This document shows positions 3,414 to 21,040 of a stretch of DNA of 21,065 bases, one piece after another; position 1 is the first letter of the stretch; each line of letters begins with the position of its first letter. Source of the stretch: a virus. The stretch spans positions 1 through 21,065 of IMG/VR virus record IMGVR_UViG_3300031839_001771, one strand, 5' to 3'. Position numbers and translations under genes: made by a program. Under the pieces are notes generated by a model that was not told the origin of the DNA, searched no databases, and was given only the letters and a program-made list of their open reading frames with translations.

Positions 3414-4967
3414 ATGGGTATCGCACTCCCCAATCTGCTGTCGAACATGCTCCGGGCGATCACGTCTCCGATCACGTCACTGGAAGCGTATCGCGGCGCT
3501 CACCTGACCAAGAAAAACGCATCGTGGATCCCCGACCACGTCAGCGGTGATGCGGCCATCGACAACTCGTTCGACATGCTGCTGCGTCGCATCCGTGAAA
3601 TGGGTCGCGATGATCCAGTGATTCAGGCCAGTAAGCGAGCCGTCGTCAAACACGTGATTGGCTCGGGAATTCTGGCCTTCGCCGATGCTCTGCTGCCGGA
3701 TTCGAATCAGGAGTACGACGACGACTTCAACGATCCGTCCGACGCCTGGTTCGAACGCTGGTCGGACGAGCGGGAGTGTGACATTGAAGGCCGGTTTTCC
3801 TTCGAGGAAATGCAGGTCCATCAGTGGAACGAAATGATGGAGTCCGGTGAATCACTCTGGCTGCATGTCGATGACGACACGCCAGGCCGCTCGGTGCGAC
3901 TGGCGTATCAACTGCTCGAAGCTGAACAGCTCGACGAATCACGAGACTGGGAAGCCGGTGGCGAAACAGAATTCGAATGCCGCCGCGGCATCGAATACGA
4001 CCATCTCGGCCGTCCTCAGTTCTACTGGATTTTCGACGCGCATCCGTACGGGTTGCGGCTGGCTCATTCCATCGAATCACGTTCTCGCCGGATTCCAGCC
4101 AGCCGGGTCATTCACACGTATCTGCCGAATCGAACGTCAGAACATCGCGGCGTGACATGGTTCACCAACCTGCAATCAGCCAAAGATCTCGACTGGTATC
4201 TGGGCAATGAACTCACCAGCAAGGCGATCGGCTCGTTGTTCGGGGTGTACTTCAAACGCGACCGGAACGCCGGCAGCGGCACGGGTCTGGGTGGCGACAG
4301 CTCCACCGGCAACACGCAGAAACTCGGTGCCGGCATCATCGGCGACCTTGGACCGAACGACGACATCAAAATCGTTGAAGCGAAACGCGGTTCTGCTGAC
4401 GCCGATCCGTTTATTCAGTTGATGCTCCAACTGCAGGCCATGTCGATCGGCGTCAGTAAGCTCCGACTGACCGGCGACTACAGCCAGTCCAGCTACACAT
4501 CAGCACGAGCGGCACACCTGGATGATGCCACGTTCTTTTTAATGCTGCAGAACTTCGCCCGGCACAATTTCGTGCGGCCCATTCGGCGATCTCACCAGCG
4601 GCAGGCAGTCGCTGCCGGACTGATCAAAAGCATGACCCCGCGGCAGTATCTGCAGGATCAGATGCGGCTGGAGAATTTCTTCATTCAGCCGCCCGGTCGG
4701 GAACAGATCGACCCGGAAAAAGAGACCAACGCAGCAGCCGCCCGTGTCCGCTTCGGGTTCAGCACCCACGCCGAAGAGTGCGGCAAACGTGGAAAACACT
4801 GGCGGAAAGTCGCGCGTCAGCGGGCTCGTGAAGAGAACTACTGGACAGACACCGTCGGACGGCTGCCGGATCTCGGCGAGTCCAAAGCCTATCTCGAAGA
4901 GTACAGCCAGCGAAGCGCCCGCGAAGAAGCGGCCACCGCCACACAGACAGCAGGGAGCCCCGCCTGA
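3414..4967 (+). CDS. Phage portal protein, lambda family (GpB-like)
   Basis: Forms the dodecameric ring at the head vertex through which DNA enters and leaves. About 517 residues, normal for the family. The N-terminus (LTSLEAYRGA-like, HVSGDAAIDNSFDMLLRRIREMGRDDPVIQASKRAVVKHVIGSG) matches the lambda-type portal pattern of 'R.R.L.RNN....A........VG.G'. Further support is GESLWLHVDDD, LLEAEQLDE, GIEYDHLGRPQFYWIFDAHP and RVIHTYLPNRTSEHRGVTWF, the typical 'G.e.d..Grp.aYw......h.....R.GQ.RG.s.l' block. The ATG at 3414 or GTG at 3408 can serve as start; GTG overlaps the gpW stop, suggesting coupling. The stop shares one base with the next ATG. Confidence 0.93.
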   Translation: MGIALPNLLSNMLRAITSPITSLEAYRGAHLTKKNASWIPDHVSGDAAIDNSFDMLLRRIREMGRDDPVIQASKRAVVKHVIGSGILAFADALLPDSNQEYDDDFNDPSDAWFERWSDERECDIEGRFSFEEMQVHQWNEMMESGESLWLHVDDDTPGRSVRLAYQLLEAEQLDESRDWEAGGETEFECRRGIEYDHLGRPQFYWIFDAHPYGLRLAHSIESRSRRIPASRVIHTYLPNRTSEHRGVTWFTNLQSAKDLDWYLGNELTSKAIGSLFGVYFKRDRNAGSGTGLGGDSSTGNTQKLGAGIIGDLGPNDDIKIVEAKRGSADADPFIQLMLQLQAMSIGVSKLRLTGDYSQSSYTSARAAHLDDATFFLMLQNFARHNFVRPIRRSHQRQAVAAGLIKSMTPRQYLQDQMRLENFFIQPPGREQIDPEKETNAAAARVRFGFSTHAEECGKRGKHWRKVARQRAREENYWTDTVGRLPDLGESKAYLEEYSQRSAREEAATATQTAGSPA

Positions 4968-7543
4968 TGCCTCAGAAGTCAGCCGCCAAGCGGCAGTATC
5001 CACTGATTCTCGACGCCGTCTGCAACACCGTCTGGGCGTGTCATGAAGACCATGTCCAGACGATTGCGGACATCATGAATGGTCGCGTAGCCGGCATCAC
5101 GTTGTCTGAATCCGAAATTCGAGCCCGTATTGGCGGCGAGTACCAGTCGAACGGATCCATCGGCCTGCTGGGCATCGAGGATGTTGAGAAGTCAGACCAG
5201 CCTGGCCCACGCATCATTGATGGCGTGGCCGTGCTGCCGGTGCATGGTGTGATGGCACCTCGCATGTCGGCGTTCATGCACGTCTCTGGTGGGACCAGTA
5301 CACAGCAACTCATGCAATGGATCGAAGACGCCGCCACCAATCCGAAGGTGAAACACATCCTGCTGGACATTGATTCGCCCGGCGGCGATGCCCACGGAAA
5401 TCAGGAAGTCGTTGACCTGATCAACGAAGTCAAACAGACGGTTCCGATTCACGGCCACGGCACCAATCTTGTCGCCAGTGCTGGTTTCTACATCTTCAAA
5501 GCCTGTACCACGACATCAGCCTCACCCTCGACCGAGCTGGGGTCTGTCGGCACGTACTTCGTCCACGGCGAAGCATCGAAAGCAAATGAAGCAGACGGCC
5601 TGACCTACACCGTGTTTCGTGGCGGTTCCTACAAGAACGCCGCCAACGAACACGAGCCGCTGAACGCCAAAGGTCGCGAATACATCACCGAGCGAATCGA
5701 TGGCATGTACCGGCAGTTTGTCGGCAGCGTGGCGAAGTGCTGCGGCATGAGCATGTCCGAAGTGGAACAGCAGTTCGGTGCTGGAAAGCTCTACCTGGCA
5801 GACGAAGCCCAACGCCGCGGCATGGTCGACCGAATCGCCACGCTCAAACAGGTCTTCAACGAATTGCGGCAGACGGGCAAAGCGGCGCCCGGTGCCCGTC
5901 AAACCATCTCAGCCGCTGTTGCCCCGCAGTTTTCAACCAAGGAAATGACCATGAATCCACTGATTCGAAACGCCGCCATTGCGGCTGGACTGGCACAGGA
6001 AGACGCGACTGATGAAGTGGTTCAGGCCGCCATCAATGGTTTCTTCCATGCCCGAGCAGAATCGCCGCCAGACGATGAGAAAAAACTCGCCACCATCCTG
6101 CTGAATCCAGAAAACCGGGTCAGCGGGAAAATCACAGACGCCACACCGCCGCTGGATGCCGCCAGAATCGGTCGTGACGCCATCTCTGCCGATGCCGCTC
6201 GTCGTCAGGACATTCTCGCCGCCGGAAAACTGATCGGCATTGATGACGAAATCATTGCCGAGTGCTGCGACGACCTGACCTGCACCGTCGAGCAGGCAGA
6301 GCGTCAGTTCAAGCGACTGGCCGTCGCCAGCAACCAGCCCGTCGGTGTGGGCATTCGCGTCAACAGATCAGCCGAAGACAAATTCGCGGCTGCGGTCGTT
6401 GATGGCCTGTTCGAAAACCATGCACGCGAACATTTCGACCGCTACGAAGCCCGCGACCTCGACAAATCCGCCATCGATGCCGGTAACCTGAGTGGTCTGG
6501 ATATCGTCAGCCGTTGCCTGAACGCCACTGCAGATCGCTCGCAAACCTTCGGTCTCGATGCGGAAGAGCTGGCCGCCCTCGCGCTGCGTGGCGACGGTTC
6601 GGACTTCTATTGCCGCCTCGGTGGTCTGGACAACGAAGGGCGAATGGTATCCGCCACCACGATGAGTCCTTCATCGTTTCCGAACATCATGTCGAACCTC
6701 ACAGGTCGAGTGATCAATGAAGCCATGAAGCAGGTCGAGTCGACCTATGCTGGATGGGCCAAGCGGCGGGAAGAGGATCTGAAAGACCATCAGCCCTCCG
6801 AAATCATCGACACCGGTCACCTGTCCGAGTTCGATCAGGTCAACGACGACCGTGACGGCGCAGAAGACACGATCGTCGAAGAGCCGAACTGGATTCAGGC
6901 CGCGGACTACGAGAAGCGTCTGAAGCTCACCCCGTACATGATCGTGAACGGTCAACTGCTCACGTTCATCAACTGGGTAGCTCTGGCCGCTGCGGCCCAC
7001 GAACGGACGATCAACCGCGCGTGTGTGAATCAACTGGTCTATGGTCAGACCGGTGATGGAAAAACGCTGTTCCATACCGACCATCTGAACAAGGTCACGT
7101 CCGGTGGAGTGCCGTCGCAGACAGAATTCCAGAACTGCCGGGCCAAGCTGCGAGCCCAGAAGGATCCTGGCAATCAGACCACACTCGGCCTGCCTCTGAC
7201 CAGCATTCTGGTTCCGTCGGCTCTCGAAACGGACGCCGAAAAATGGCTGAATCCCGATAACCGGGTGTCTCCGACATCGGACACAAACGGCAACACGTTC
7301 CGAGGAAAGCTCAGCTACGCGATCGAGCCAATGCTTGACGACCTGTCAGCCGTCAAGTGGTACGGGTTCACCTCGAAGATGCGAGCCGCCGCTGTCATGT
7401 ACGCGTATCGCCGCGGCTACCGCAACATGAGGCGCCGGGCTTACGTCGATCCGAGCACACAGGCTCGAATTTTCGTGTTCGAAGGCTCGTTCGCCACAGC
7501 CGCCGTCAACTGGCGAGGAGCCGTCGAAGACGCTGGCCAGTAA
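4967..7543 (+). CDS. S49-type prohead protease / scaffold / gpT-like major capsid protein fusion
   Basis: An 858-residue polyprotein combining capsid maturation protease and shell protein. Residues about 83-300 are an S49 (SppA/lambda gpC-like) protease: DIDSPGG (134-140), nucleophile Ser171 in VASAGFYIFKA, and general-base Lys223 in GGSYKNAANEHEPL. Residues about 329-455 are charged and helical, as expected for a scaffold. Residues about 470-858 resemble the Mu gpT-like major capsid family (KLTPYMIVNGQL, LAAAAHERTINRACVNQL, DGKTLFHTDHLNKV, MRAAAVMYAYRRG). The ATG is preceded by AGGGAG and overlaps the portal stop. Protease-capsid fusions are known, so the architecture is uncommon rather than unique. 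An internal start at 5951 may yield scaffold-capsid separately. A strong terminator follows. Confidence 0.88.
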   Translation: MPQKSAAKRQYPLILDAVCNTVWACHEDHVQTIADIMNGRVAGITLSESEIRARIGGEYQSNGSIGLLGIEDVEKSDQPGPRIIDGVAVLPVHGVMAPRMSAFMHVSGGTSTQQLMQWIEDAATNPKVKHILLDIDSPGGDAHGNQEVVDLINEVKQTVPIHGHGTNLVASAGFYIFKACTTTSASPSTELGSVGTYFVHGEASKANEADGLTYTVFRGGSYKNAANEHEPLNAKGREYITERIDGMYRQFVGSVAKCCGMSMSEVEQQFGAGKLYLADEAQRRGMVDRIATLKQVFNELRQTGKAAPGARQTISAAVAPQFSTKEMTMNPLIRNAAIAAGLAQEDATDEVVQAAINGFFHARAESPPDDEKKLATILLNPENRVSGKITDATPPLDAARIGRDAISADAARRQDILAAGKLIGIDDEIIAECCDDLTCTVEQAERQFKRLAVASNQPVGVGIRVNRSAEDKFAAAVVDGLFENHAREHFDRYEARDLDKSAIDAGNLSGLDIVSRCLNATADRSQTFGLDAEELAALALRGDGSDFYCRLGGLDNEGRMVSATTMSPSSFPNIMSNLTGRVINEAMKQVESTYAGWAKRREEDLKDHQPSEIIDTGHLSEFDQVNDDRDGAEDTIVEEPNWIQAADYEKRLKLTPYMIVNGQLLTFINWVALAAAAHERTINRACVNQLVYGQTGDGKTLFHTDHLNKVTSGGVPSQTEFQNCRAKLRAQKDPGNQTTLGLPLTSILVPSALETDAEKWLNPDNRVSPTSDTNGNTFRGKLSYAIEPMLDDLSAVKWYGFTSKMRAAAVMYAYRRGYRNMRRRAYVDPSTQARIFVFEGSFATAAVNWRGAVEDAGQ
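5939..5953 (+). promoter_or_regulatory. Possible internal ribosome-binding site and start within the protease-capsid gene
   Basis: AAGGAA (5939-5944) is followed by two in-frame ATGs, at 5945 and 5951; AAGGA is 7 bases from the second. Initiation at 5951 (Met329) would give a 530-residue scaffold-capsid protein lacking the protease. Lambda makes its scaffold Nu3 from an in-frame internal start in the protease gene C, so there is a direct precedent for the mechanism. The junction falls exactly where the protease domain ends. Use of this start is inferred. Confidence 0.5.
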
Positions 7544-8863: not shown

Positions 8864-9414
8864 CACTCCTGACCGCCGTCGGACCACTCGCCAAATCCAT
8901 CAAGGGCACCGCCGAACTGATTGCCGGAACTGATCAGTTCCAGCTCGAAACCGGCAAGTCAGCCACGCTCTCACTCGAAGAAAACTGCTACTGGCCACAC
9001 ATCCCGCTGGTTGATCGCGGAGACGGTGAAGACCAGCAGTTCATCACCGCGCCGCTGTGCTGTGTGCATGTCGATCCGGGTCAGGCTTACAACCGACCGT
9101 ATCCCGGCAGCACGAATCAACTCGTCACCGGCGAAGTCTTCGTGCAGCTGGCTCTGATCGCGGACACCGGCACCTACACGGACTCGCGAGACCAGTACAC
9201 CGACCTGTTGAATCGAGCGGATCAGATCATTCTCGAAGCGCTGCGGATCGCGTCACAACGCACCGCCGAAACGCAGTGGCTGACAGTGCATTCGTTCTTC
9301 ATCACTCAGCCGCCGGAAGAAAACGACATCTCGCAGGTGCAGTTTCAGGACGCGGATGGAGACCCGATCAAGGTTCACATTTTCCCGATGATCGCTGCCT
9401 GGAGTGCCAACTGA
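8860..9414 (+). CDS. Putative tail-terminator / tail-completion protein
   Basis: A 184-residue protein beginning at an ATGA overlap, with AGGAGG 6 bases upstream. N-terminal helix (LAKSIKGTAELIAG), a central strand-rich part (GEVFVQLALIADTGTYTDSRDQYTDLLNRADQIILEALRIA) and a final strand, VHIFPMIAAWSAN. A strand, a long helix and further strands with a C-terminal hydrophobic strand is what gpU-like tail terminators look like, and the position two genes before the probable tube fits. No decisive motif is present; the call rests mostly on synteny. Confidence 0.45.
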   Translation: MTLLTAVGPLAKSIKGTAELIAGTDQFQLETGKSATLSLEENCYWPHIPLVDRGDGEDQQFITAPLCCVHVDPGQAYNRPYPGSTNQLVTGEVFVQLALIADTGTYTDSRDQYTDLLNRADQIILEALRIASQRTAETQWLTVHSFFITQPPEENDISQVQFQDADGDPIKVHIFPMIAAWSAN

Positions 9415-9938
9415 TGACGCTCTCCATCACGGTCACCGCCAACACGCCGGAACCCGGCACGATGGGCCGCAAGGTCGATGGCTGGATCCGGGAAACCGCC
9501 AAAGCGGAAGCCGAATTCCACCAGTCACAGCACACGAAACTCCACTTCCGTCGCGGAGCTTCCACGCGGTACGGCTACAAACGCCGGTCATCGAAGTACG
9601 TCAAGGAAAAACGACGCATCACCGGGCAGGCTCAGCCGCTGGTGTTCAGCGGAGCCACCCGCGAATCGGTGCAGCAGAACTTCAAGGTGCAGGGCACCTC
9701 CACACGTGGAGCGAAACTGACGCGAGTCGCCGCGTTCAAAGGCGGTTCCGGACGTTATCGCCTGAAGGATGGCCTGACCACGCTGACGCGGCAGCAGGAA
9801 GTCGCGTTGCAGCTGGTCGAGGAAATCAGAGCCATCACGGTCGACGAAGTGAACGAAATCGGCAGTCACGGCGCGAGGGTCTACGACGACTTCGTTGAAG
9901 TCGGTCTCAGTGCGGGCCGTCGCCGCAAACTTGGATAA
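9414..9938 (+). CDS. Putative HK97-gp10-like / minor tail (neck) protein
   Basis: A 174-residue basic protein. The ATG at 9414 shares a base with the preceding stop (TGATG) and is chosen over a longer in-frame extension to 9057, which only shadows the upstream gene. The block STRYGYKRRSSKYVKEKRRITGQAQPLVFSG resembles a recurring signature of phage neck or minor-tail proteins, in which 'Y.Y..R..KY...K........PLV.SG' precedes an oligomerising core; the C-terminal DFVEVGLSAGRRRKLG fits that group. It lies directly before the tail-tube candidate. The HK97-gp10 assignment is an inference from pattern and position. Confidence 0.45.
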   Translation: MTLSITVTANTPEPGTMGRKVDGWIRETAKAEAEFHQSQHTKLHFRRGASTRYGYKRRSSKYVKEKRRITGQAQPLVFSGATRESVQQNFKVQGTSTRGAKLTRVAAFKGGSGRYRLKDGLTTLTRQQEVALQLVEEIRAITVDEVNEIGSHGARVYDDFVEVGLSAGRRRKLG

Positions 9939-12405: not shown

Positions 12406-14649
12406 ATGGCCACCACCAACATCACCACCGAATTCGCGACGATCGGAGCCGACAAGGTCGTCTCAGCGATGGCCGCCACCGATGCGGCACTGGTGAAGGC
12501 CACGGAATCCGCCCGACGACAGACCGACGTGCAGCAGAAACAGGCCGAGGGTCTCCGGAAACTCCGCGACGCCGAACGCGAAGAGCAGCAGCAGCAGAAA
12601 CAGGCGGCGGGCATCATCGCCGGAACCATCACCGCCGAAGAGCGCTATCAGAAAGAGATCGCCGAACGGCAGTTACTGCTGAAAAAAGGACTGCTGACAC
12701 AGGGCCAGTACAATCGCGCCGTGGGGGAATCACGAGCCCGCCTGGACGCCGCGACCGGTTCCAACAAATCAATGATCGGCAGCATCGCCCAGACGGCTGG
12801 TGCTGTGGCTGGTGTGACGGGTGCGGTGGGTGTTCTGATGCTGGCTGCCAGAGCACTTCGAGCCGAGTGGCAGAACCTGGTCGATCGACAGAAGAACGCC
12901 AAAGACCGTGCCATCGGTTTCGAGAACGCTCTGACGGAAACTCGATTCAACGTCGGCAAGTTCATGTCAGCGGAAGAACAGCGGGCAACAGCGCTGGAGC
13001 TGTCCACGAAATACGGCATCGCTCCGGAACGGGCAGCCATGCTGCTGGGCAAAACTGCCACATCAACCGGTATCCAGAACAAGGACGACCTGCAGACCGC
13101 GTTGAATGCTGCTGCTGGCGCCGCTGCCATTCGTCCGGATCTGGCGGACGAGGAACTGGCGGCTCTGGGGGCCGCGGCTGGCTCGCTGGGAAAAACGTTC
13201 AACATCACCCCGCAGCAGGCGATCGGATTTATCAACCAGGTCGGTCAGCAGTCGAACATCGGAGAACTTTCCAAGCAGGTCGACAACATCACACCAGCGG
13301 TAGCGGGCCTGATGGCCAACGGCTTCACGGAAGGCGAAGCCGGAGCCCTGCTGGCAACGATCACTCAGAAGGGCTTCGACACCGAGGGAGCGAAGTCGTT
13401 CACCGGTACGGTGGCGGTGGCGGACTCACTGCGTCAGGCCTTCGGTGATCGTGAAGAGTTTCAGCGGGAAGATGGTTCCTTCAACGCCATCGCGGCGATT
13501 GAGTACCTGCAGAATAATCAGGCCGACGCCAATACATTCATCCGAGGCGGCAAACTGGAATCCGGCAAGAAGATCAAAGCCGCGAAACTCGGTAAAGGGC
13601 AGTTGAGGCCGTTCTTCGAACAGTTGTTCGGCCTGCTGGAAGGGGATACCGACGACCGCTTCGCCGCGTCAGTCGACGTGATCGGCTCGTTCGAAGACGC
13701 GGGCCTGAACTATGACCAGCTGCTGGCGGATAACAAAGCCAATAATCGACTCTCCAATCTGGATCGCGGATTTGACGCCGCCATTCAGTCGATTCAGGCA
13801 ACAGAGTCAACGGCGATTTCAGGAATACTGCGTGAACGGCTGCCGGAACTTGAGCAGTCTCTAGGTGGCACATCGATCGGCCAGAAGATCTCACAGATCA
13901 GCCGAGAGTTCAGTAGTAATGCGGGAACGGATTCTGCCGCGGCGACGCAGGCCGCGTTCGAGCAGTTGCTGGCAACGATGACGCAACTCGAATCCGCTGG
14001 CGGCGATCGCAATAACCAGTTAGCCGGTTTTCTCAGACCAGTCATCCAGCAGTTACAGGACGCGGTGCCGGCGTTGCGCACGCAACAAATCTCAGAAGGT
14101 TTAAGTTCGGCCACGGGCTCGCAACACAATAAAGACGCGCAGGCCATCGCGCAGGCAGGGTTCGACGAGTTTCTGCAGGGTGTTGTCGATCCGGAATACC
14201 GGGACTATTTGCGTGAACGTGTGGATCTCAATGCAACCGGTCCAGTCGATCCCAGAGAAGCGGCTCAGAAAGCCATCGAGAATTTCGATCTGGCAGGCTC
14301 TGGCCGATTTGCGATCAAAGACCCTGAATCATTCGCTCAGAAGCAACTCGCCGCCGCCAGTGCGGGATTATCAGCAGAGCAGCAGCAGGATTTGCAGGAC
14401 CGGCTGAGTGAAGGCAACAACCCGGCATCACGTGGCACCGGCCGTCTGCGACCGCTGCATGATGCCAGGGACATCATCGATAACTTCGATCTGGAGAAAA
14501 CACCGCAAGGGGCTTCAGTGCTGGCGGTGCTGGAAAAGATTCTGCAGGTCAACGAAAAGCAGATTGCTCCAGATAATCAGCGGCCGTTTATTCCTGAACC
14601 GTCGCGTATTCCGCCGGATACCGTCCTCCTGTCGCGGGGGGCGAACTGA
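12406..14649 (+). CDS. Tail tape measure protein
   Basis: Sets tail length and is later ejected with the DNA. 747 residues, mostly Ala/Gln/Glu-rich helix. Residues 25-110 are strong coiled coil (TESARRQTDVQQKQAEGLRKL, then a Gln-rich stretch); residues 123-148 are a hydrophobic, probably membrane-inserting segment (MIGSIAQTAGAVAGVTGAVGVLML) typical of tape measures. The middle has repeated Ala/Gly helices (MLLGKTATSTGI, EELAALGAAAGSLGKTFNITPQQAIGFINQVGQ). No peptidase or lysozyme motif is seen. At the usual relation of about 1.5 angstrom per residue the tail would be near 110 nm. No strong ribosome site precedes the ATG; it overlaps the next gene by TGATG. Confidence 0.88.
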   Translation: MATTNITTEFATIGADKVVSAMAATDAALVKATESARRQTDVQQKQAEGLRKLRDAEREEQQQQKQAAGIIAGTITAEERYQKEIAERQLLLKKGLLTQGQYNRAVGESRARLDAATGSNKSMIGSIAQTAGAVAGVTGAVGVLMLAARALRAEWQNLVDRQKNAKDRAIGFENALTETRFNVGKFMSAEEQRATALELSTKYGIAPERAAMLLGKTATSTGIQNKDDLQTALNAAAGAAAIRPDLADEELAALGAAAGSLGKTFNITPQQAIGFINQVGQQSNIGELSKQVDNITPAVAGLMANGFTEGEAGALLATITQKGFDTEGAKSFTGTVAVADSLRQAFGDREEFQREDGSFNAIAAIEYLQNNQADANTFIRGGKLESGKKIKAAKLGKGQLRPFFEQLFGLLEGDTDDRFAASVDVIGSFEDAGLNYDQLLADNKANNRLSNLDRGFDAAIQSIQATESTAISGILRERLPELEQSLGGTSIGQKISQISREFSSNAGTDSAAATQAAFEQLLATMTQLESAGGDRNNQLAGFLRPVIQQLQDAVPALRTQQISEGLSSATGSQHNKDAQAIAQAGFDEFLQGVVDPEYRDYLRERVDLNATGPVDPREAAQKAIENFDLAGSGRFAIKDPESFAQKQLAAASAGLSAEQQQDLQDRLSEGNNPASRGTGRLRPLHDARDIIDNFDLEKTPQGASVLAVLEKILQVNEKQIAPDNQRPFIPEPSRIPPDTVLLSRGAN

Positions 14650-15062
14650 TGACCACAGCCGCCACGTTCAACGGCACGGCTCTTTCCGGAATCGTCATCA
14701 CCCGATCACCCGGCCGCACGGGAGTGGCGGTGCAGGAGCAGCGTCTGTTCGGAAATCCCGGAGCCACTCAGCTGACCGGCGGAGCGGAACCGGCGGATCT
14801 GGATCTGGTGCTCTGGCTGACCGGCTTCGCGTCCAGTGCTGCCATCAACACCTACATCACGGCCCTCGAAGCGCTGGCCGTTAATGGTGCTGTCGGTTCA
14901 CTGGTGCTGTCGGGAGACCTCAACGACACGTACGCCAGCGCCGCACTCCGCACCGTCGAACGAGTGAAGGTCTCCGGTCAGGATGGCCCGCTGCCGAATG
15001 ATCCCGACACACCGGGCCAGTGGACTGACTTCATCCGTCTCCGGTTCAGGAGGCTCGGCTGA
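14649..15062 (+). CDS. Small distal-tail-region protein, unknown family
   Basis: A 137-residue protein translationally coupled to the tape measure (TGATG). It opens with TTAATFNGTALSGIVITRSPGRTGVAVQEQRLFGNPGA and continues with the helix AAINTYITALEAL and strands GSLVLSGDLNDTYASAALRTVERVKVSG and WTDFIRLRFRRLG. A mixed alpha/beta protein with strands at each end, placed immediately after the tape measure, where distal-tail or tail-tip components are found. It is much shorter than lambda gpM-gpL or Dit proteins taken together. Function is inferred only from position. Confidence 0.55.
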   Translation: MTTAATFNGTALSGIVITRSPGRTGVAVQEQRLFGNPGATQLTGGAEPADLDLVLWLTGFASSAAINTYITALEALAVNGAVGSLVLSGDLNDTYASAALRTVERVKVSGQDGPLPNDPDTPGQWTDFIRLRFRRLG

Positions 15063-15652
15063 TGTTCGACATCATGCACGTACCGATCATGGGCTTCACG
15101 CAGAACGCCGCCCGTCGCACCGGTCTCGAAGATCTCTGGTACAAGATGCGTCGATCAGTCCCGCTGGAACGCCACAGCGTGCTCCCGCCGCTCCGCTGGA
15201 ACTCCGATTTCAAAGGCATGGCCGAATTCATCCGCCGCAACCTGTCCGCCAGTGGAGAAGTTCGAGTCTACGCGTACTCGTGGGGTTGCGGGCATGGAGC
15301 TCTGAAGCTGGCCCGCGAACTGCATCGCCGGGGCATCACCGTCACTCAGATGGTCCTGTGCGACCCGGTGTATCACTCATGGTTCCGGCCGTGGCGAGGT
15401 CTGTTCCAGGCGTCATGGAACCCGCCGATCGTTTATCCGCCGAACGTGCGGCGAGTCATCTCGTTCTTTCAACGGCAGAACCGACCGCAGGGCGTGGAAG
15501 TCCTGTTGACGCATCCTGAAGGCATCGTCGAACCGCCGGTGCAGTTGCATCGAGATCACGCGTTCATGGATGACGCCGCCGAATTTCACGACACGGCGCT
15601 GAGTGTCGCGGCGTTACCGGCGGCCGTCCAGCGACGGAAGAAACCCCCATAA
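15062..15652 (+). CDS. Alpha/beta-hydrolase fold protein (putative esterase/lipase-like)
   Basis: A 196-residue protein with an ordered Ser-Asp-His triad: nucleophile elbow VRVYAYSWGCGHGA (Ser73, flanked as A-Y-S-W-G), Asp101 in MVLCDPVYHSW after the next strand, and His166 in LHRDHAFMDD, followed by Met/Asp-Asp as is common at the catalytic His. The elbow helix GALKLARELHRRG fits the fold. No signal peptide or membrane segment. The start overlaps the previous stop. In a virion gene cluster it could de-esterify host surface polymer, act as a lysin-B-like lysis enzyme, or be a moron acting on host lipids; the substrate cannot be told from the sequence. Confidence 0.75.
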   Translation: MFDIMHVPIMGFTQNAARRTGLEDLWYKMRRSVPLERHSVLPPLRWNSDFKGMAEFIRRNLSASGEVRVYAYSWGCGHGALKLARELHRRGITVTQMVLCDPVYHSWFRPWRGLFQASWNPPIVYPPNVRRVISFFQRQNRPQGVEVLLTHPEGIVEPPVQLHRDHAFMDDAAEFHDTALSVAALPAAVQRRKKPP

Positions 15653-15741
15653 CCAGCATCAGGAAGAACGGAAGCGGCCACCGCCACCAGGCACGGCCAG
15701 TGATGACGACAGAAAACGGGCAGGTTTTCGGAGTGTTCCAG

Positions 15742-16473
15742 ATGACAACAGAGAAAGGCCTCGAAGACGTGTCTGTCCATGCCAGAATTCTGATCGTTGA
15801 AGACAGCGAGGCGGATGCCGAACTGCTGAAGCGGCACCTGTCCGTGGCGTTTGAGCAGAGCATCACCTGCGTCCGAGTCAAAACGCTGCACGACGCCATC
15901 GAAGCACTCAACCGCACCGATCAGCCGTTCGATGTCATCCTGCTGGATCTCACGCTGCCGGACAGTGTCGGAGTCAGCACGCTGTCACGCATTCAGCCAC
16001 ACGCTTCCAGTGCCGCTGTCATCGTCGTCAGTGGTCAGGCCGACGCTCAGCACATGGTGCTGCTGCAGGGAGCCACCGATTTCGCCCACAAGGGCGATTA
16101 TCAACGCATCGTCACGCAGATCATTCAGAATCTGCAACTGCAAAGACAGGATCGTCAGCAGTTCAACCGTCTGTCACGAGGTCTCGATTCCGTGGCCCGA
16201 GGCTTTGCGGAACTTCGTGCCGAAAACGCCAGTCAGTCGGAAACCATGAATGAGCTTTCAGAGTCCGTCGGCAGACTGTCCACCGCCGTGGACCGGTTCA
16301 CGCACACCATTGAAGGCCGGGACGGAGTGGATGACCGCCTGACCGAACTCGAGAACTGGCGGACAGCGGTGACCAGTGCCATCCGCTGGACCGTCCGCTG
16401 TGTCACCGGTGCCAGTGTCGCGGCAGCCATCGCGGCGATCTTCGCGAAGATCTTCGGAGGGTCCACGTCATGA
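15742..16473 (+). CDS. Receiver-domain (response-regulator) protein with coiled coil and C-terminal membrane helix
   Basis: A 243-residue protein. Residues 14-133 form a complete CheY-like receiver domain: acidic pair Glu20/Asp21 (ILIVEDSEAD), phosphoacceptor Asp69 (VILLDLTLPD), Ser97 (VIVVSGQAD) and Lys117 (DFAHKGDY). Residues 134-207 are helical/coiled-coil (RLSRGLDSVARGFAELRAEN, MNELSESVGRLSTAVDRFTHTI, DDRLTELENWRTAV). Residues 214-238 are a hydrophobic segment (IRWTVRCVTGASVAAAIAAIFAKIF). No DNA-binding or enzymatic output domain follows. The coiled coil plus C-terminal helix recalls XhlA-type holin-accessory proteins. ATG 15742 is chosen for GGAG 8 bases upstream; GTG 15700 and ATG 15703 are also in frame. 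ATGA overlap with the next gene. Confidence 0.8.
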   Translation: MTTEKGLEDVSVHARILIVEDSEADAELLKRHLSVAFEQSITCVRVKTLHDAIEALNRTDQPFDVILLDLTLPDSVGVSTLSRIQPHASSAAVIVVSGQADAQHMVLLQGATDFAHKGDYQRIVTQIIQNLQLQRQDRQQFNRLSRGLDSVARGFAELRAENASQSETMNELSESVGRLSTAVDRFTHTIEGRDGVDDRLTELENWRTAVTSAIRWTVRCVTGASVAAAIAAIFAKIFGGSTS

Positions 16474-17111
16474 CCGCGTTCCTCGGCGGAACTGTCATCA
16501 CCGAACTCGCCTGGACCGGACTCAACGCGTTGCAGGTTTCGTTTGCCGTCTCGACCGCCTGGGCCGACAAACGCTTTCAGGTCTACGTCGGCAAGCGGCT
16601 GGCCGGAACCACGCTGACCGCTGACCAGCGCAGCCTGATTGTCGATGTGCCGTACACCTCGCGAGCCATCCCGCTGTCACTGGTAGTGGTCGATCCCGCC
16701 GACTCCAGCACGGATTTCAGCAGCCTGTTCGAGTGGAAGCCGTGGAACATCTACTGCATTTCGTTCACCGCTCCCGATCCACTGCCGGCAGACATTGACC
16801 GCTATGAAGTCGTGATGTCGACCGAAGCCGGTGGAGCGTACGACACCTCGAACGTCGTGCGAGTCATCCCGCACACGGCGGGACGCACCATCTACAGCGT
16901 GGAACTGCCGGACATCGCCTCATCCGGTGACTGGGAAGTCGCGGTGATTCCACGAGACAACGCCAAACCCTCCGGCAATGCCGGTACCGCGGCCGAGACC
17001 ACCATTCCGGCGGTGGTGTACCCCGCTGATTTAACACTCGACACCAGCGGCCGCCGCTTCACCGCCACCGTCGAAAGTGGAACCCTGACCGCCACGTTCA
17101 CTTGTCCATAA
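16470..17111 (+). CDS. Tail/fibre-associated protein with FN3-like domain
   Basis: A 213-residue, beta-rich protein starting at an ATGA overlap. Residues 1-85 contain one or two short beta units (TELAWTGLNALQVSFAVSTAWADKRFQVYVGKRLAGTTLTA). Residues about 92-175 look like a fibronectin type III domain: WNIYCISFTAPDP, DIDRYEVVMSTEAGGAYDTSNVVRVI, RTIYSVELPDIASSGDWEVAVIPRDNAKPSGN. FN3 domains are common in tail tips and fibres, where they aid surface attachment. It precedes the fibre gene, separated from it by a 133-bp palindromic element. The exact structural role is not determined. Confidence 0.6.
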   Translation: MTAFLGGTVITELAWTGLNALQVSFAVSTAWADKRFQVYVGKRLAGTTLTADQRSLIVDVPYTSRAIPLSLVVVDPADSSTDFSSLFEWKPWNIYCISFTAPDPLPADIDRYEVVMSTEAGGAYDTSNVVRVIPHTAGRTIYSVELPDIASSGDWEVAVIPRDNAKPSGNAGTAAETTIPAVVYPADLTLDTSGRRFTATVESGTLTATFTCP

Positions 17112-17125
17112 CCAACAGAAGATCA

Positions 17126-17258
17126 ACCACGAAACACACGAAAGATCAGGATGTCTTTTCTCACGCGAAGCAAGGAAGACGCGAAGATGTCAGGAATTCT
17201 TTTCTTCGCGGCTTAGCGACTTCGCGTGAGCCTTTTTTTCTTTCGCGTCTTTCGTGGT
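17126..17258. repeat. 133-bp nested palindromic element (MITE-like)
   Basis: Terminal inverted repeats of 20 bases (17126-17145 and 17239-17258) match at 18 of 20 positions. Inside are a perfect 11-bp pair (17160-17170 with 17220-17230) and a perfect 7-bp pair (17180-17186 with 17204-17210). CACGAA / CGCGAAG words recur throughout. It fills nearly all the 17112-17283 gap and has no credible gene of its own. It looks like a non-autonomous mobile or structured intergenic element. Confidence 0.75.
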
Positions 17259-17283
17259 GGAACAATCAGTAACGGAATACGAC

Positions 17284-19587
17284 ATGACCACAGCCACACG
17301 CTCCACCACGGTTTTCAGTTCGGCCCGAGTCAAAGCGCCGGTGCGGCTGCTGATCGACGCCAACGGCACACTGTCCACGGCCTTCGCCGCCGGGCAGACA
17401 CATCAGAGCAAAACGCTGGTCACCGGAGACCGGATTGCTCTGGCCGCTCAGACCACAGCCAGCGAAAACGGGCTGTACGAGGTCAACGCCAGCGGAGCCC
17501 CTTCCCGAGTGCGAGACCTGCCCGCTGGTGCCGCCGCGTCAGGAGTCTCGTTTCAGGTCCAGGCCGGAACGCATGCGGGCAAAATCTACTCCATCAACGC
17601 CGAACCCGGCAGCGATGTCGTCGGCACCAACAACCTGACAATTGCTCCACCACCTGTCACCGTTGATTGGGGAGATGTCGGAGGCACTCTGGCCGATCAG
17701 ACGGACCTGCAAGCGGCGCTGGATGCCAAAGCCGCTGCCACTCACGCCTCGAATCACACCGACGGAACAGACGATATTCAATCCGCCACATCCGGGCAGA
17801 AGGGGCTCGCAACGGCGGCACAGATCACAAAGCTCGATGGAATTGAAACCGGAGCCACCGCCGATCAGTCAGCGGCTGAAGTGCCGGTCACTCCCACAGG
17901 TAATCTGGCCGCGTCAGACGCTCAAGCCGCGCTGGTCGAGTTGCAGGGCGATATCGATACGATCAATACCACGCTGGGTAATCTGGATGCCGCGATCATT
18001 TTCAAGGGCACCTGGGATGCGTCCAGCGGTTCGTTTCCAGGCAGCGGCAGTGCGCAGGCGGGTTGGAAATACAATGTCAGCGTGGCCGGTACAGTCGACA
18101 GCGTGGCGTTTGATATCAACGACACGATTCTGGCAATCACCGACAACGCCAGCACGTCTACGTTCGCCAGCAACTGGTTCAAGGCCGACGACACTGACAA
18201 AGTGGTTTCGGTGGCTGGCAAAACAGGTGCGGTAACGCTGGACGCGAACGATGTGTCAGAAGTCACTGACAAGCGGTACATGACTGACGCTCAGGAAACA
18301 AAACTCGACAGTGTGGAATCTGGAGCCACCGCTGATCAGTCAGCCGGTGAAATTGAAACCGCGTACAACAGTCAGGTGGCGGCTGCATCACAGGCTGAGA
18401 TGGAAGCCGGTACGGAATCCGCGATCCGCCGCATGAGTCCTTTGAGAGTCGCCCAGGCAATCTCCGCACTCGGCGGTGGAGGAGCTTCTGATCACGGAGC
18501 CCTGACCGGGCTGTCGGATGATGATCACACGCAGTACCTGCGGACGGACTCAACGCGGGCGAGCACGGGAATTCAGGAACTCAAAGGGCTGAACCTGACG
18601 GACGCCACCGAGCTGACGATCAGTTCCGGAGCGATCACGGTCACTCAGGGATATCACACGGTCGACACGGAATCAGATGCGGCCAGCGATGATCTGGACA
18701 CGATCACCGCGGCGAAAGGTCAGGGCGACATCATCATCCTGCGCCCGGTTCACGCCGACCGGACGATCGTGATCAAACACGGCACTGGAAACATCAAGTG
18801 CATCGGCAACTGTGACATCACACTGGACGACGTGCATGACGGCTGCCAGCTCGTGAACTACGACGGCACCAACTGGATGGCCACGCCTCACGGTTCGCTG
18901 CTGTACTGCGAAGATTCCACACTCGGGACACAGGCGGGTGATATCACCTACGCGATCGCTGATGGTGGTCCGTTCGTGAATCTGCACCCAGGCGACGATG
19001 GCGACACGCTCACGCTTTCGAGCGGTCTTCCGAGCTGGCAACCAAACTCTGGACTTCATGGTCCTGGATACTTTGCACAGGATGGTTCGTTTCAGTTGTT
19101 CCCGACTATGGTCGGCAGCGCGACAGCAGGCGGCAAATCAATCGTCGCTGACCTGCTGTACGCGGTGCCGATACGGATCCCGCGAGATTTGACACTGACC
19201 ACGATCGGGCTCGAAGTTCACACCACGGGAACGGCTGCCAATGCAAGGATTGGTCTATACGCAAATGCGGAGGGACATCCTGGCGCCTTGATTGTGGATT
19301 CCGGCGCGTTCTCCGTGGGTACGACCGGCGTGAAAGAGCAGACGATTTCCACGGCCGTCACCGATGGATGGGTGTGGGTTGTGTTTATCGCTGACGGCAC
19401 AGTGACTCTGAAATCGATCCCGAGTGGAAACGTCGTCAACCTTCTGGGTTGTTCATATTCTGCGGGCACAATCTCATCAGTCGGATACATGCTTTTGAGC
19501 AGCACTTACGGCGCGCTTCCGGATCCGTTCCCGTCTGGCAGTTCGGTTCCGCAAGCCGGTGCCTGCCCGCTCGTTTACCTCGAATGA
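17284..19587 (+). CDS. Tail fibre protein
   Basis: A 767-residue receptor-binding-type protein. Residues 1-125 form an N-terminal beta region probably attaching to the tail. The middle carries fibre repeats: TKLDGIETGATADQSAAE (182-199) and TKLDSVESGATADQSAGE (339-356), KVVSVAGKTGAVTLDANDV (306-324) and HGALTGLSDDDHTQYL (404-419), all common in trimeric fibres. The C-terminal part (about 590-767) is a beta-sandwich-like head (DLTLTTIGLEVHTTGTAANARIGLYANAEGHPGALIVDSGAF) that could bind carbohydrate. ATG 17284 has GGAA 6 bases upstream; an in-frame GTG at 17254 lies inside the palindromic element and is rejected. No chaperone gene follows. Confidence 0.85.
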   Translation: MTTATRSTTVFSSARVKAPVRLLIDANGTLSTAFAAGQTHQSKTLVTGDRIALAAQTTASENGLYEVNASGAPSRVRDLPAGAAASGVSFQVQAGTHAGKIYSINAEPGSDVVGTNNLTIAPPPVTVDWGDVGGTLADQTDLQAALDAKAAATHASNHTDGTDDIQSATSGQKGLATAAQITKLDGIETGATADQSAAEVPVTPTGNLAASDAQAALVELQGDIDTINTTLGNLDAAIIFKGTWDASSGSFPGSGSAQAGWKYNVSVAGTVDSVAFDINDTILAITDNASTSTFASNWFKADDTDKVVSVAGKTGAVTLDANDVSEVTDKRYMTDAQETKLDSVESGATADQSAGEIETAYNSQVAAASQAEMEAGTESAIRRMSPLRVAQAISALGGGGASDHGALTGLSDDDHTQYLRTDSTRASTGIQELKGLNLTDATELTISSGAITVTQGYHTVDTESDAASDDLDTITAAKGQGDIIILRPVHADRTIVIKHGTGNIKCIGNCDITLDDVHDGCQLVNYDGTNWMATPHGSLLYCEDSTLGTQAGDITYAIADGGPFVNLHPGDDGDTLTLSSGLPSWQPNSGLHGPGYFAQDGSFQLFPTMVGSATAGGKSIVADLLYAVPIRIPRDLTLTTIGLEVHTTGTAANARIGLYANAEGHPGALIVDSGAFSVGTTGVKEQTISTAVTDGWVWVVFIADGTVTLKSIPSGNVVNLLGCSYSAGTISSVGYMLLSSTYGALPDPFPSGSSVPQAGACPLVYLE
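17851..17873 (+). repeat. Fibre-gene internal repeat, copy 1
   Basis: Encodes GATADQSA in the fibre; identical at 22 of 23 bases to 18322-18344. The protein repeat extends further on both sides than this well-conserved DNA core. Confidence 0.75.
18322..18344 (+). repeat. Fibre-gene internal repeat, copy 2
   Basis: Second copy of the 23-base core at 17851-17873, 471 bp downstream in the same frame. It could serve as a recombination point for fibre-domain exchange or deletion. Confidence 0.75.
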
Positions 19588-19693: not shown

Positions 19694-21040
19694 ATGAAAA
19701 CTGCCGTTGCGATCATCAGCCACAACTACGGCCACTACCTGCGGGACGCGGTTCAGAGCGTCCTCACGCAGACCAGTCCCGCTGATGAAATCCTGATCGT
19801 GGATGACAGTTCCACCGACGATACCGCCGAAGTTGCCGCCGAATTCGCCAGTCAGGGAGTCCGGTATCTGCGAGGCGACTGGCGGAATGTGCAGCGGGCT
19901 CGACATGCCGCCACCCGGCACACGTCCAGTGACGTGCTCTGCTGGCTCGATGCGGATGACATTCTCCCGGCGAACTATCTGGCCGCCGGTGTGCCGCTGT
20001 TTCGGGATCCGGCGGTCGGCATTGTCTACAGCGACATGCAGCGGTTTGGTAACTCGACCGACTGCAGCCGCTACCCGCAACCGTCACGCATTGATCTGTC
20101 CGTCCGGAACTGCTGCCACGCCTCGTCACTGGTCCGGCGTGCCGCTCTGGAAACCAGCGCAGCGTTTGATGCGTTCGTCACCAGGAACACTCACGCCGAC
20201 TGGTACGTCTGGCGACGAATTCAGCAGGCTGGCTGGAAACTCGCGAAAAGCACCGCCCCGCTGCTCTATCGTCAACACGGCGATTCCATGAAAACCACCG
20301 CTCAGCGGCTGAATTACCGGCACCTGATCTCCGCCGAACTCGAACCACTCACGCTGTTTATTCCGTTGTCTGGACGCTGGGAACGCTGGCCGCAGACACT
20401 CGACTGGCTCGACCGGCAGACCTGGCCGACAGACGTGATCCGGCTGATTCTGTGCGACACCTCCGGGGATCCGGAATTCAGCCGCATGGTCCGGCGTGAC
20501 GTGCTTGAACTGCCGTTTGACGATGTCCGGGTCATGACGCTGCCGCCCCTCTCCGTCGGCCTGGCGGATGCTGACCGGCACGATGCCGCCGTGTGTTCCG
20601 CAGTGCAGCAGATGGTGGCTCGTATCTACCGCACTATGACCCAGCAGTTGACCACCGATTTCGTCTGCGTGCTGGAAGATGACATCATCCCGCCACTCGA
20701 TGGAATCTCGCTCCTGTGGGATGGCATGGATCTGAGAATCGCCAGTGTCAGCGGTGCCTATCGTTCGCGGTTCGACGATCGCTACGTCGGGCAAAGTCTG
20801 ACGGGAAAACCACTGTGGGACCGACACACGGGTCTGATGCAGGTGCAGTCAAACGGCTTCGGTTTCGTCCTGCTGAGATCTCAGGCGCTGCGTGATATCG
20901 GCATTCAGCACGCATCACCCGGCGGCAACTACGACCACAACTTCTACGCGGCACTCCGCACCGGCGAAGCACTCGCCCTGATGAACTGGTCGTGCGAATG
21001 CCAGCACCTTGATTCTCAACCAGCTCTCCAACCGGCCTGA
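19694..21040 (+). CDS. Tandem glycosyltransferase: family-2 GT-A domain plus second GT-A-like domain
   Basis: A 448-residue protein. Domain 1 (1-205) is a GT2 enzyme: AIISHNYGHYLRDAVQSVL (6-24), ILIVDDSSTDDT (33-44; Asp37/Asp38 for nucleotide), metal-binding WLDADDIL (84-91) and HADWYVW (167-173) as likely catalytic base region. Domain 2 (220-448) repeats the layout: LFIPLSGRWERWPQTLDWLDRQTWP, LILCDTSGD and VCVLEDDIIPPLDG (EDD 328-330 in the DxD place). No signal or membrane segment, so it acts in the cytoplasm. At the end of a phage late cluster, after the fibre, it could glycosylate virion proteins or alter host surface glycans; the donor and acceptor are unknown. An inverted REP doublet immediately precedes it. 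Confidence 0.85.
   Translation: MKTAVAIISHNYGHYLRDAVQSVLTQTSPADEILIVDDSSTDDTAEVAAEFASQGVRYLRGDWRNVQRARHAATRHTSSDVLCWLDADDILPANYLAAGVPLFRDPAVGIVYSDMQRFGNSTDCSRYPQPSRIDLSVRNCCHASSLVRRAALETSAAFDAFVTRNTHADWYVWRRIQQAGWKLAKSTAPLLYRQHGDSMKTTAQRLNYRHLISAELEPLTLFIPLSGRWERWPQTLDWLDRQTWPTDVIRLILCDTSGDPEFSRMVRRDVLELPFDDVRVMTLPPLSVGLADADRHDAAVCSAVQQMVARIYRTMTQQLTTDFVCVLEDDIIPPLDGISLLWDGMDLRIASVSGAYRSRFDDRYVGQSLTGKPLWDRHTGLMQVQSNGFGFVLLRSQALRDIGIQHASPGGNYDHNFYAALRTGEALALMNWSCECQHLDSQPALQPA

Follow-up and report, generated by a model that had tools for sequence, protein, structure and literature searches.

In phage infection, the moment of lysis and of other late events at the membrane is usually described as being set by holin assembly itself, by antiholins, or by the membrane potential.

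XhlA-type holin partners (PF10779; XhlA/XhlB of PBSX) are small phage proteins from late modules, in which a coiled coil is followed by a C-terminal membrane helix, and XhlA is essential for PBSX lysis (PMC6834076). In REC-kinase and REC-GGDEF proteins (PF00072; DgcR, LvrB), the α5-helix of the receiver domain is prolonged into a signalling helix. Receiver-type domains encoded by phages are represented by the cREC domains of jumbo phages (PF20274), which are divergent, are not linked to histidine kinases, and sit among NAD and cyclic-nucleotide enzymes (PMC7824862). A literature search for a link between receivers and holins, or between receivers and lysis, returned nothing. Here, we analyze a receiver protein encoded in a 21,065-base virus record (this whole stretch is called the window below), whose host may be a planctomycete.

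Domain Organization of the Receiver Protein

The gene under study (15742..16473, + strand; its 243-aa product is called P0001 below) encodes a receiver, a coiled coil, and a C-terminal hydrophobic helix. The ATG start codon (15742) is preceded by GGAG at the usual spacing, an in-frame GTG at 15700 being the alternative start, and at the 3' end the stop codon overlaps the start of the next gene (ATGA). Codon usage of the gene equals the average for this phage, and the other two frames of the + strand score much lower. The open reading frame, its translation, and every active-site residue named in an earlier, sequence-only reading of the window are present as claimed.

The receiver domain comprises residues 14–130 (15781..16131, + strand). 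According to Pfam, residues 16–120 match PF00072 (Response_reg) with E-value 6.1e-13 and 49.4 bits, the cut-off being 30.2, and P0001 is also matched by sequence to receivers from PDB. The active site is complete, consisting of the acidic pair Glu20/Asp21, the phospho-acceptor Asp69, Ser97, and Lys117; Asp21, Asp69, and Lys117 are invariant across ten aligned receivers, and the codon of Asp69, the predicted phosphorylation site, occupies positions 15946..15948 (+ strand). In the AlphaFold2 model, built from the ten-sequence alignment, this part adopts the (β/α)5 receiver fold with pLDDT 90–97, and its best fold matches are solved PDB receivers, so that structure prediction bears out the receiver fold. 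The top viral fold match is BFVD A0A8S5LY51 (Myoviridae sp. ctrnx29, 298 aa), with 222 aligned columns that extend past the receiver; this protein, too, may consist of a receiver extended by helices.

The coiled coil and the C-terminal hydrophobic helix, also expected from the earlier reading, are both predicted. A long helix (residues 120–191; 16099..16314, + strand; pLDDT 57–93) prolongs α5 of the receiver and is predicted to form a coiled coil, its hydrophobic residues recurring with the corresponding period of 3.5 residues. After a break at residues 192–196, a second helix (residues 197–238, with the segment RLTELENWR; 16330..16455, + strand) ends in a membrane-type hydrophobic stretch, residues 220–238, which is the top 19-residue hydrophobic window of the protein (Kyte–Doolittle mean 1.94); most of this helical half is modelled at pLDDT of only 57–75. 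The claimed absence of an output domain agrees with Pfam and other domain and sequence matching, which found none.

Gene Neighborhood and the Nearest Relative

All recognized genes of the window lie on the + strand and include a gpA-type terminase, a RusA-like nuclease, a lambda-family portal, a fused S49 protease/capsid protein, and head and tail genes. The RusA-like Holliday-junction nuclease (2468–2887, + strand) lies between the terminase and portal genes and has 82% identity in the nearest relative described below. The codon-position GC of ORF 9404–9898 (+ strand) is atypical (GC3 0.47), and this ORF probably shadows a gene that is read in a different frame. The structural module is closed by a GT2-family glycosyltransferase (19694–21040, + strand).

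The P0001 gene is located inside the tail module. Upstream, a tape-measure-sized gene (12406–14649) is followed by a conserved tail-type gene (14649..15062, + strand) that ends approximately 0.7 kb before P0001, and by a gene for a 196-aa protein (15062..15652, + strand); downstream lie a gene for a 213-aa protein (16470..17111, + strand) and a virion-type gene (17254–19587, + strand). The 196-aa protein has a nucleophile-elbow-like motif Y-A-Y-S-W-G-C-G, as well as LCDP and HRDHAFMDD, and a low-confidence single-sequence model gives it a strand–helix–strand core whose weak matches include Bacillus lipases and other folds; it is a possible small serine α/β hydrolase. Given this position, the description of the surroundings as a lysis-end region is not supported: no endolysin or holin was recognized in the window, which is a fragment record. 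Neither does the window record contain HATPase_c, and, having no histidine kinase, it does not hold a complete two-component set of kinase and receiver.

The location between tail-type genes, together with one weak coiled-coil match to tape-measure families, could be taken to mean that P0001 is a virion component, with the coiled coil lying in the tail, the hydrophobic helix aiding DNA entry via the inner membrane, and the receiver sensing the signalling state of the new host. We regard this as highly improbable, as coiled coils match such profiles by chance and a gene of tape-measure size is already present in the record.

The alignment of portals yielded one close record, IMGVR_UViG_3300005611_002138 (L012/L092), in which the terminase, the tail-tube-like gene, the portal, and the gene starting at 14649 are, respectively, 84, 81, 73, and 76% identical to those of the window; searches with the tail-tube-like gene, the terminase, and the following gene revealed no other close relatives. 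The 196-aa protein is absent from this relative, and the gene at 16470 is conserved, delimiting the slot. In the relative, the slot between the homologues of genes 14649 and 16470 is occupied by a single 148-aa ORF with a membrane helix and a coiled coil and no receiver, which shares the ATGA overlap with the next gene. The membrane helix is N-terminal in this protein and C-terminal in P0001. Since the ORF in the slot of the relative is a receiver-less membrane coiled coil, both phages likely have a coiled-coil protein of the membrane at this site, the receiver being the variable part.

An anchored coiled-coil protein retained in the slot of the relative is what one would expect if P0001 acted in the membrane or envelope of the infected cell or lysogen, for example in superinfection exclusion or an entry block, and the tail-module position and the membrane anchor are compatible with such a function. 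The receiver would then be regulatory or merely serve as a scaffold for folding or dimerization, the latter leaving the intact active site unexplained. With no repressor or lysogeny gene seen nearby and no known exclusion protein found to match P0001, we consider this explanation unlikely.

Origin of the Receiver

Among cellular proteins, the P0001 receiver comes closest to the N-terminal receivers found in sensor kinases and in GGDEF proteins (identity of at most 37%), which are marked by the signature LLDLTLPDS.G...DYLVKG; the α4-helix of P0001 is shorter by two residues than in these relatives. Judging by its sequence, the receiver is canonical, as opposed to the divergent cREC type.

Single-protein scans of the viral_contigs and phages collections revealed no close homologues of P0001, and the three matches obtained from genome_contigs are all unrelated cellular regulators. 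Six weak receiver matches inspected in the phages collection bear output or enzyme domains and resemble host DNA in phage records. Matches of P0001 to PADLOC defence families reflect the receiver alone.

Response regulators had been said to be unusual in phage structural operons, and the counts support this: none of 48 other phage contigs (837 kb in total, mostly found through the portal) contains a receiver, in a search in which the receivers of two phage records described below (L126 and L127) scored.

Recurring Receiver–Anchor Pairs

Scanning of the IMG/VR viral collection was limited to two peptide patterns, and the last scan used the receiver alignment. The receiver-pattern scan yielded five records (L123–L127), and the search for the same fusion elsewhere, proposed in the sequence-only reading, thus gave a positive answer. 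In all five, the receiver is accompanied by a coiled coil with a C-terminal membrane helix, fused to it in two records and encoded by the next, overlapping gene in three; in two records, the pair directly follows a tail-fibre gene. Counting the window, the receiver and the C-terminally anchored coiled coil share a single chain in three cases and are encoded by two overlapping genes in the other three, and, as far as the sequences tell, the window protein unites in one chain a pair that other records keep as separate genes.

Two of the records are small phages with recognizable structural genes. In L126 (35.5 kb), with terminase, portal, and protease, a collagen-like tail-fibre gene comes first, a stand-alone receiver next, and then an overlapping gene for a protein of 110 aa that combines a coiled coil and a C-terminal membrane helix. 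In L127 (26 kb), with terminase and tape measure, the receiver, again stand-alone, comes after a gene that weakly matches tail fibres; it is followed by an overlapping gene for a 72-aa protein of the same coiled-coil/C-terminal-membrane-helix type and then by a 67-aa holin-like protein. No kinase was seen in either record by the HATPase_c search.

In the other three, a PAS histidine kinase adjoins the pair, and HATPase_c is present in these records; their phage identity is based on the IMG/VR classification and a few phage-type neighbors, and Terminase_6N was not found in them. In L124 (177 kb), tail-fibre-type repeats are followed by the PAS kinase (5.5e-34 to a PDB kinase, with HATPase), the receiver, and an overlapping gene for a protein of 133 aa, likewise a coiled coil with a membrane helix at its C terminus. 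The kinase, receiver, and membrane protein genes of L124 are consecutive (4498–7181) and flanked by structural-type genes, and a second kinase lies at about 60.6–60.9 kb. In L125 (113 kb) and L123 (371 kb, with surroundings that look cellular), the receiver, a helical linker, and the C-terminal membrane helix are on one chain, the two proteins being 41% identical to each other, and the gene overlaps that of a PAS-HisKA-HATPase kinase, beyond which lies a stand-alone receiver. These three-gene sets occupy L125:1947–4402 and L123:5968–8565, and the kinases are approximately 54% identical over 229 aa, though one of the contigs looks cellular.

Compared with shuffled sequences, the membrane halves of P0001, L126, and L127 have no detectable homology; for L123/L125 it is weak (p 0.02–0.04). 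In the tree, the receivers of the window, L126, and L127 are placed apart from one another (weak support). As the receivers are not grouped and the membrane halves are unlike, the likeness of these three loci is one of design, not of demonstrated descent. Among 398 Pseudomonadota genomes, no close receiver of the L126 type was found in a prophage, the lone match being a LuxR-type regulator; the receiver–anchor protein of L123/L125 had no full-length match in approximately 700 Pseudomonadota and Acidobacteriota genomes, where the best hits have no C-terminal anchor.

In a set of 729 phage genes taken from loci of this kind, 4% encode a single C-terminal membrane helix, and 2% have a touching small downstream gene with one. 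A crude pairing rule is passed by five out of six receiver cases (L123, with its longer tail, fails) against a base rate of 6%, which is a guide and not a formal test, the rule having been devised after the cases were seen.

The ungrouped tail-end receivers look separately captured, the receivers most similar to that of P0001 come from cells (identity of at most 37%), and the nearest relative has none, all of which would agree with a host receiver that was captured, became fused to a membrane protein by chance, and has no function. Against this speak the intact active site, the phage-like codon usage, and the recurrence of the pair in other phages, as a pairing reached by separate captures, and often located next to tail-type genes, points to selection. 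A useless capture is therefore quite unlikely, in line with the earlier argument against a decayed gene.

The distribution of kinases bears on another explanation, namely, that the anchored receiver acts on host signalling as a decoy or phosphate sink for a host kinase at the membrane, changing host physiology during infection. P0001 has no output domain, its receiver is of the class of cellular kinases and GGDEF proteins, and neither the window nor the L126 and L127 records contain a kinase, as would suit a decoy. However, a decoy has no need of the kinase that three records supply beside the pair, and the gene is located among late tail genes rather than early ones; we consider such a role improbable. 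Superinfection exclusion and the host-kinase decoy are the main rivals of the function proposed below.

Proposed Function

We tentatively propose, with a probability of about 0.45, that P0001 is a phage-encoded, tail-anchored phospho-switch whose likeliest target is a late membrane event, i.e., holin-type permeabilization and lysis timing. The sequence-only reading likewise supposed that a host phosphorelay may govern a membrane-associated phage function, be it lysis timing or superinfection exclusion. The hydrophobic helix would be placed in the inner membrane and the receiver in the cytoplasm, where Asp69 could be phosphorylated by a histidine kinase (of the host in the case of the window, encoded next to the pair in three other records) or by a small phosphodonor. 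Phosphorylation would alter dimerization of the receiver, shift the register of the coiled coil, and modify how the membrane helices assemble; P0001 would either be a holin partner like XhlA or brake one.

The switch is favored by the predicted single continuous helix leading from the receiver to the anchor region. On the other side, the membrane helix is at the opposite end in the slot protein of the nearest relative, and no homology can be detected among the membrane halves of P0001, L126, and L127. Lysis timing as the target is favored but unproven, because the pair lies among late tail genes, the layout is that of XhlA, and the pair of L127 precedes a holin-like protein; the absence of a recognized lysis gene from the window and the sub-threshold XhlA profile score speak against it.

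The recurrence of fused and split pairs in unrelated phages suggests that a phosphate signal controls a late membrane event, such as lysis, in some phages. A broader generalization is possible and rather doubtful: phages may repeatedly and independently couple a receiver, sometimes together with their own PAS kinase, to a membrane coiled coil of the late module, which would constitute an undescribed class of phosphorelay-gated control over lysis or some other membrane event, with the window containing the single-chain version of a small tailed phage. Through a receiver joined to an anchor like that of a holin partner, the phosphorelay of the cell, or a PAS kinase of the phage, would decide the moment of membrane opening. 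The kinase-bearing records (L123–L125) provide a complete set for rebuilding in the laboratory, and Asp69 is a single-residue test point.

Comparison With Known Systems

As in the jumbo phages with cREC domains, a receiver-type domain is encoded by a phage; unlike cREC, P0001 combines a canonical receiver and an anchor, has no match to PF20274, and no NAD or cyclic-nucleotide enzymes were seen among its neighbors. With REC-kinase and REC-GGDEF receivers, P0001 shares the sequence signature, the active site, the fold, and the prolonged α5-helix, and it differs from them, besides the shorter α4, in that the coiled coil and membrane helix replace the kinase, GGDEF, or other output.

The pairs of L123–L127 likewise bring together a receiver and a coiled coil that has a membrane helix at the C terminus and, in L124, L126, and L127, adjoin tail-type genes, but in these last three records the pair is formed by two genes, in L123, L124, and L125 a kinase stands beside it, and the membrane parts have no detectable homology.

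The resemblance to XhlA-type partners noted in the sequence-only reading holds for the layout, the predicted end of P0001 (RLTELENWR followed by the membrane helix) being similar, and does not extend to the sequence, as the PF10779 profile gives 15.9 and 15.4 bits on P0001 against the curated cut-off of 34.7. The neighborhood also differs from that of XhlA, which has holin and endolysin neighbors, none being recognized in the fragment record of P0001. Finally, XhlA has no receiver, whereas P0001 carries one.
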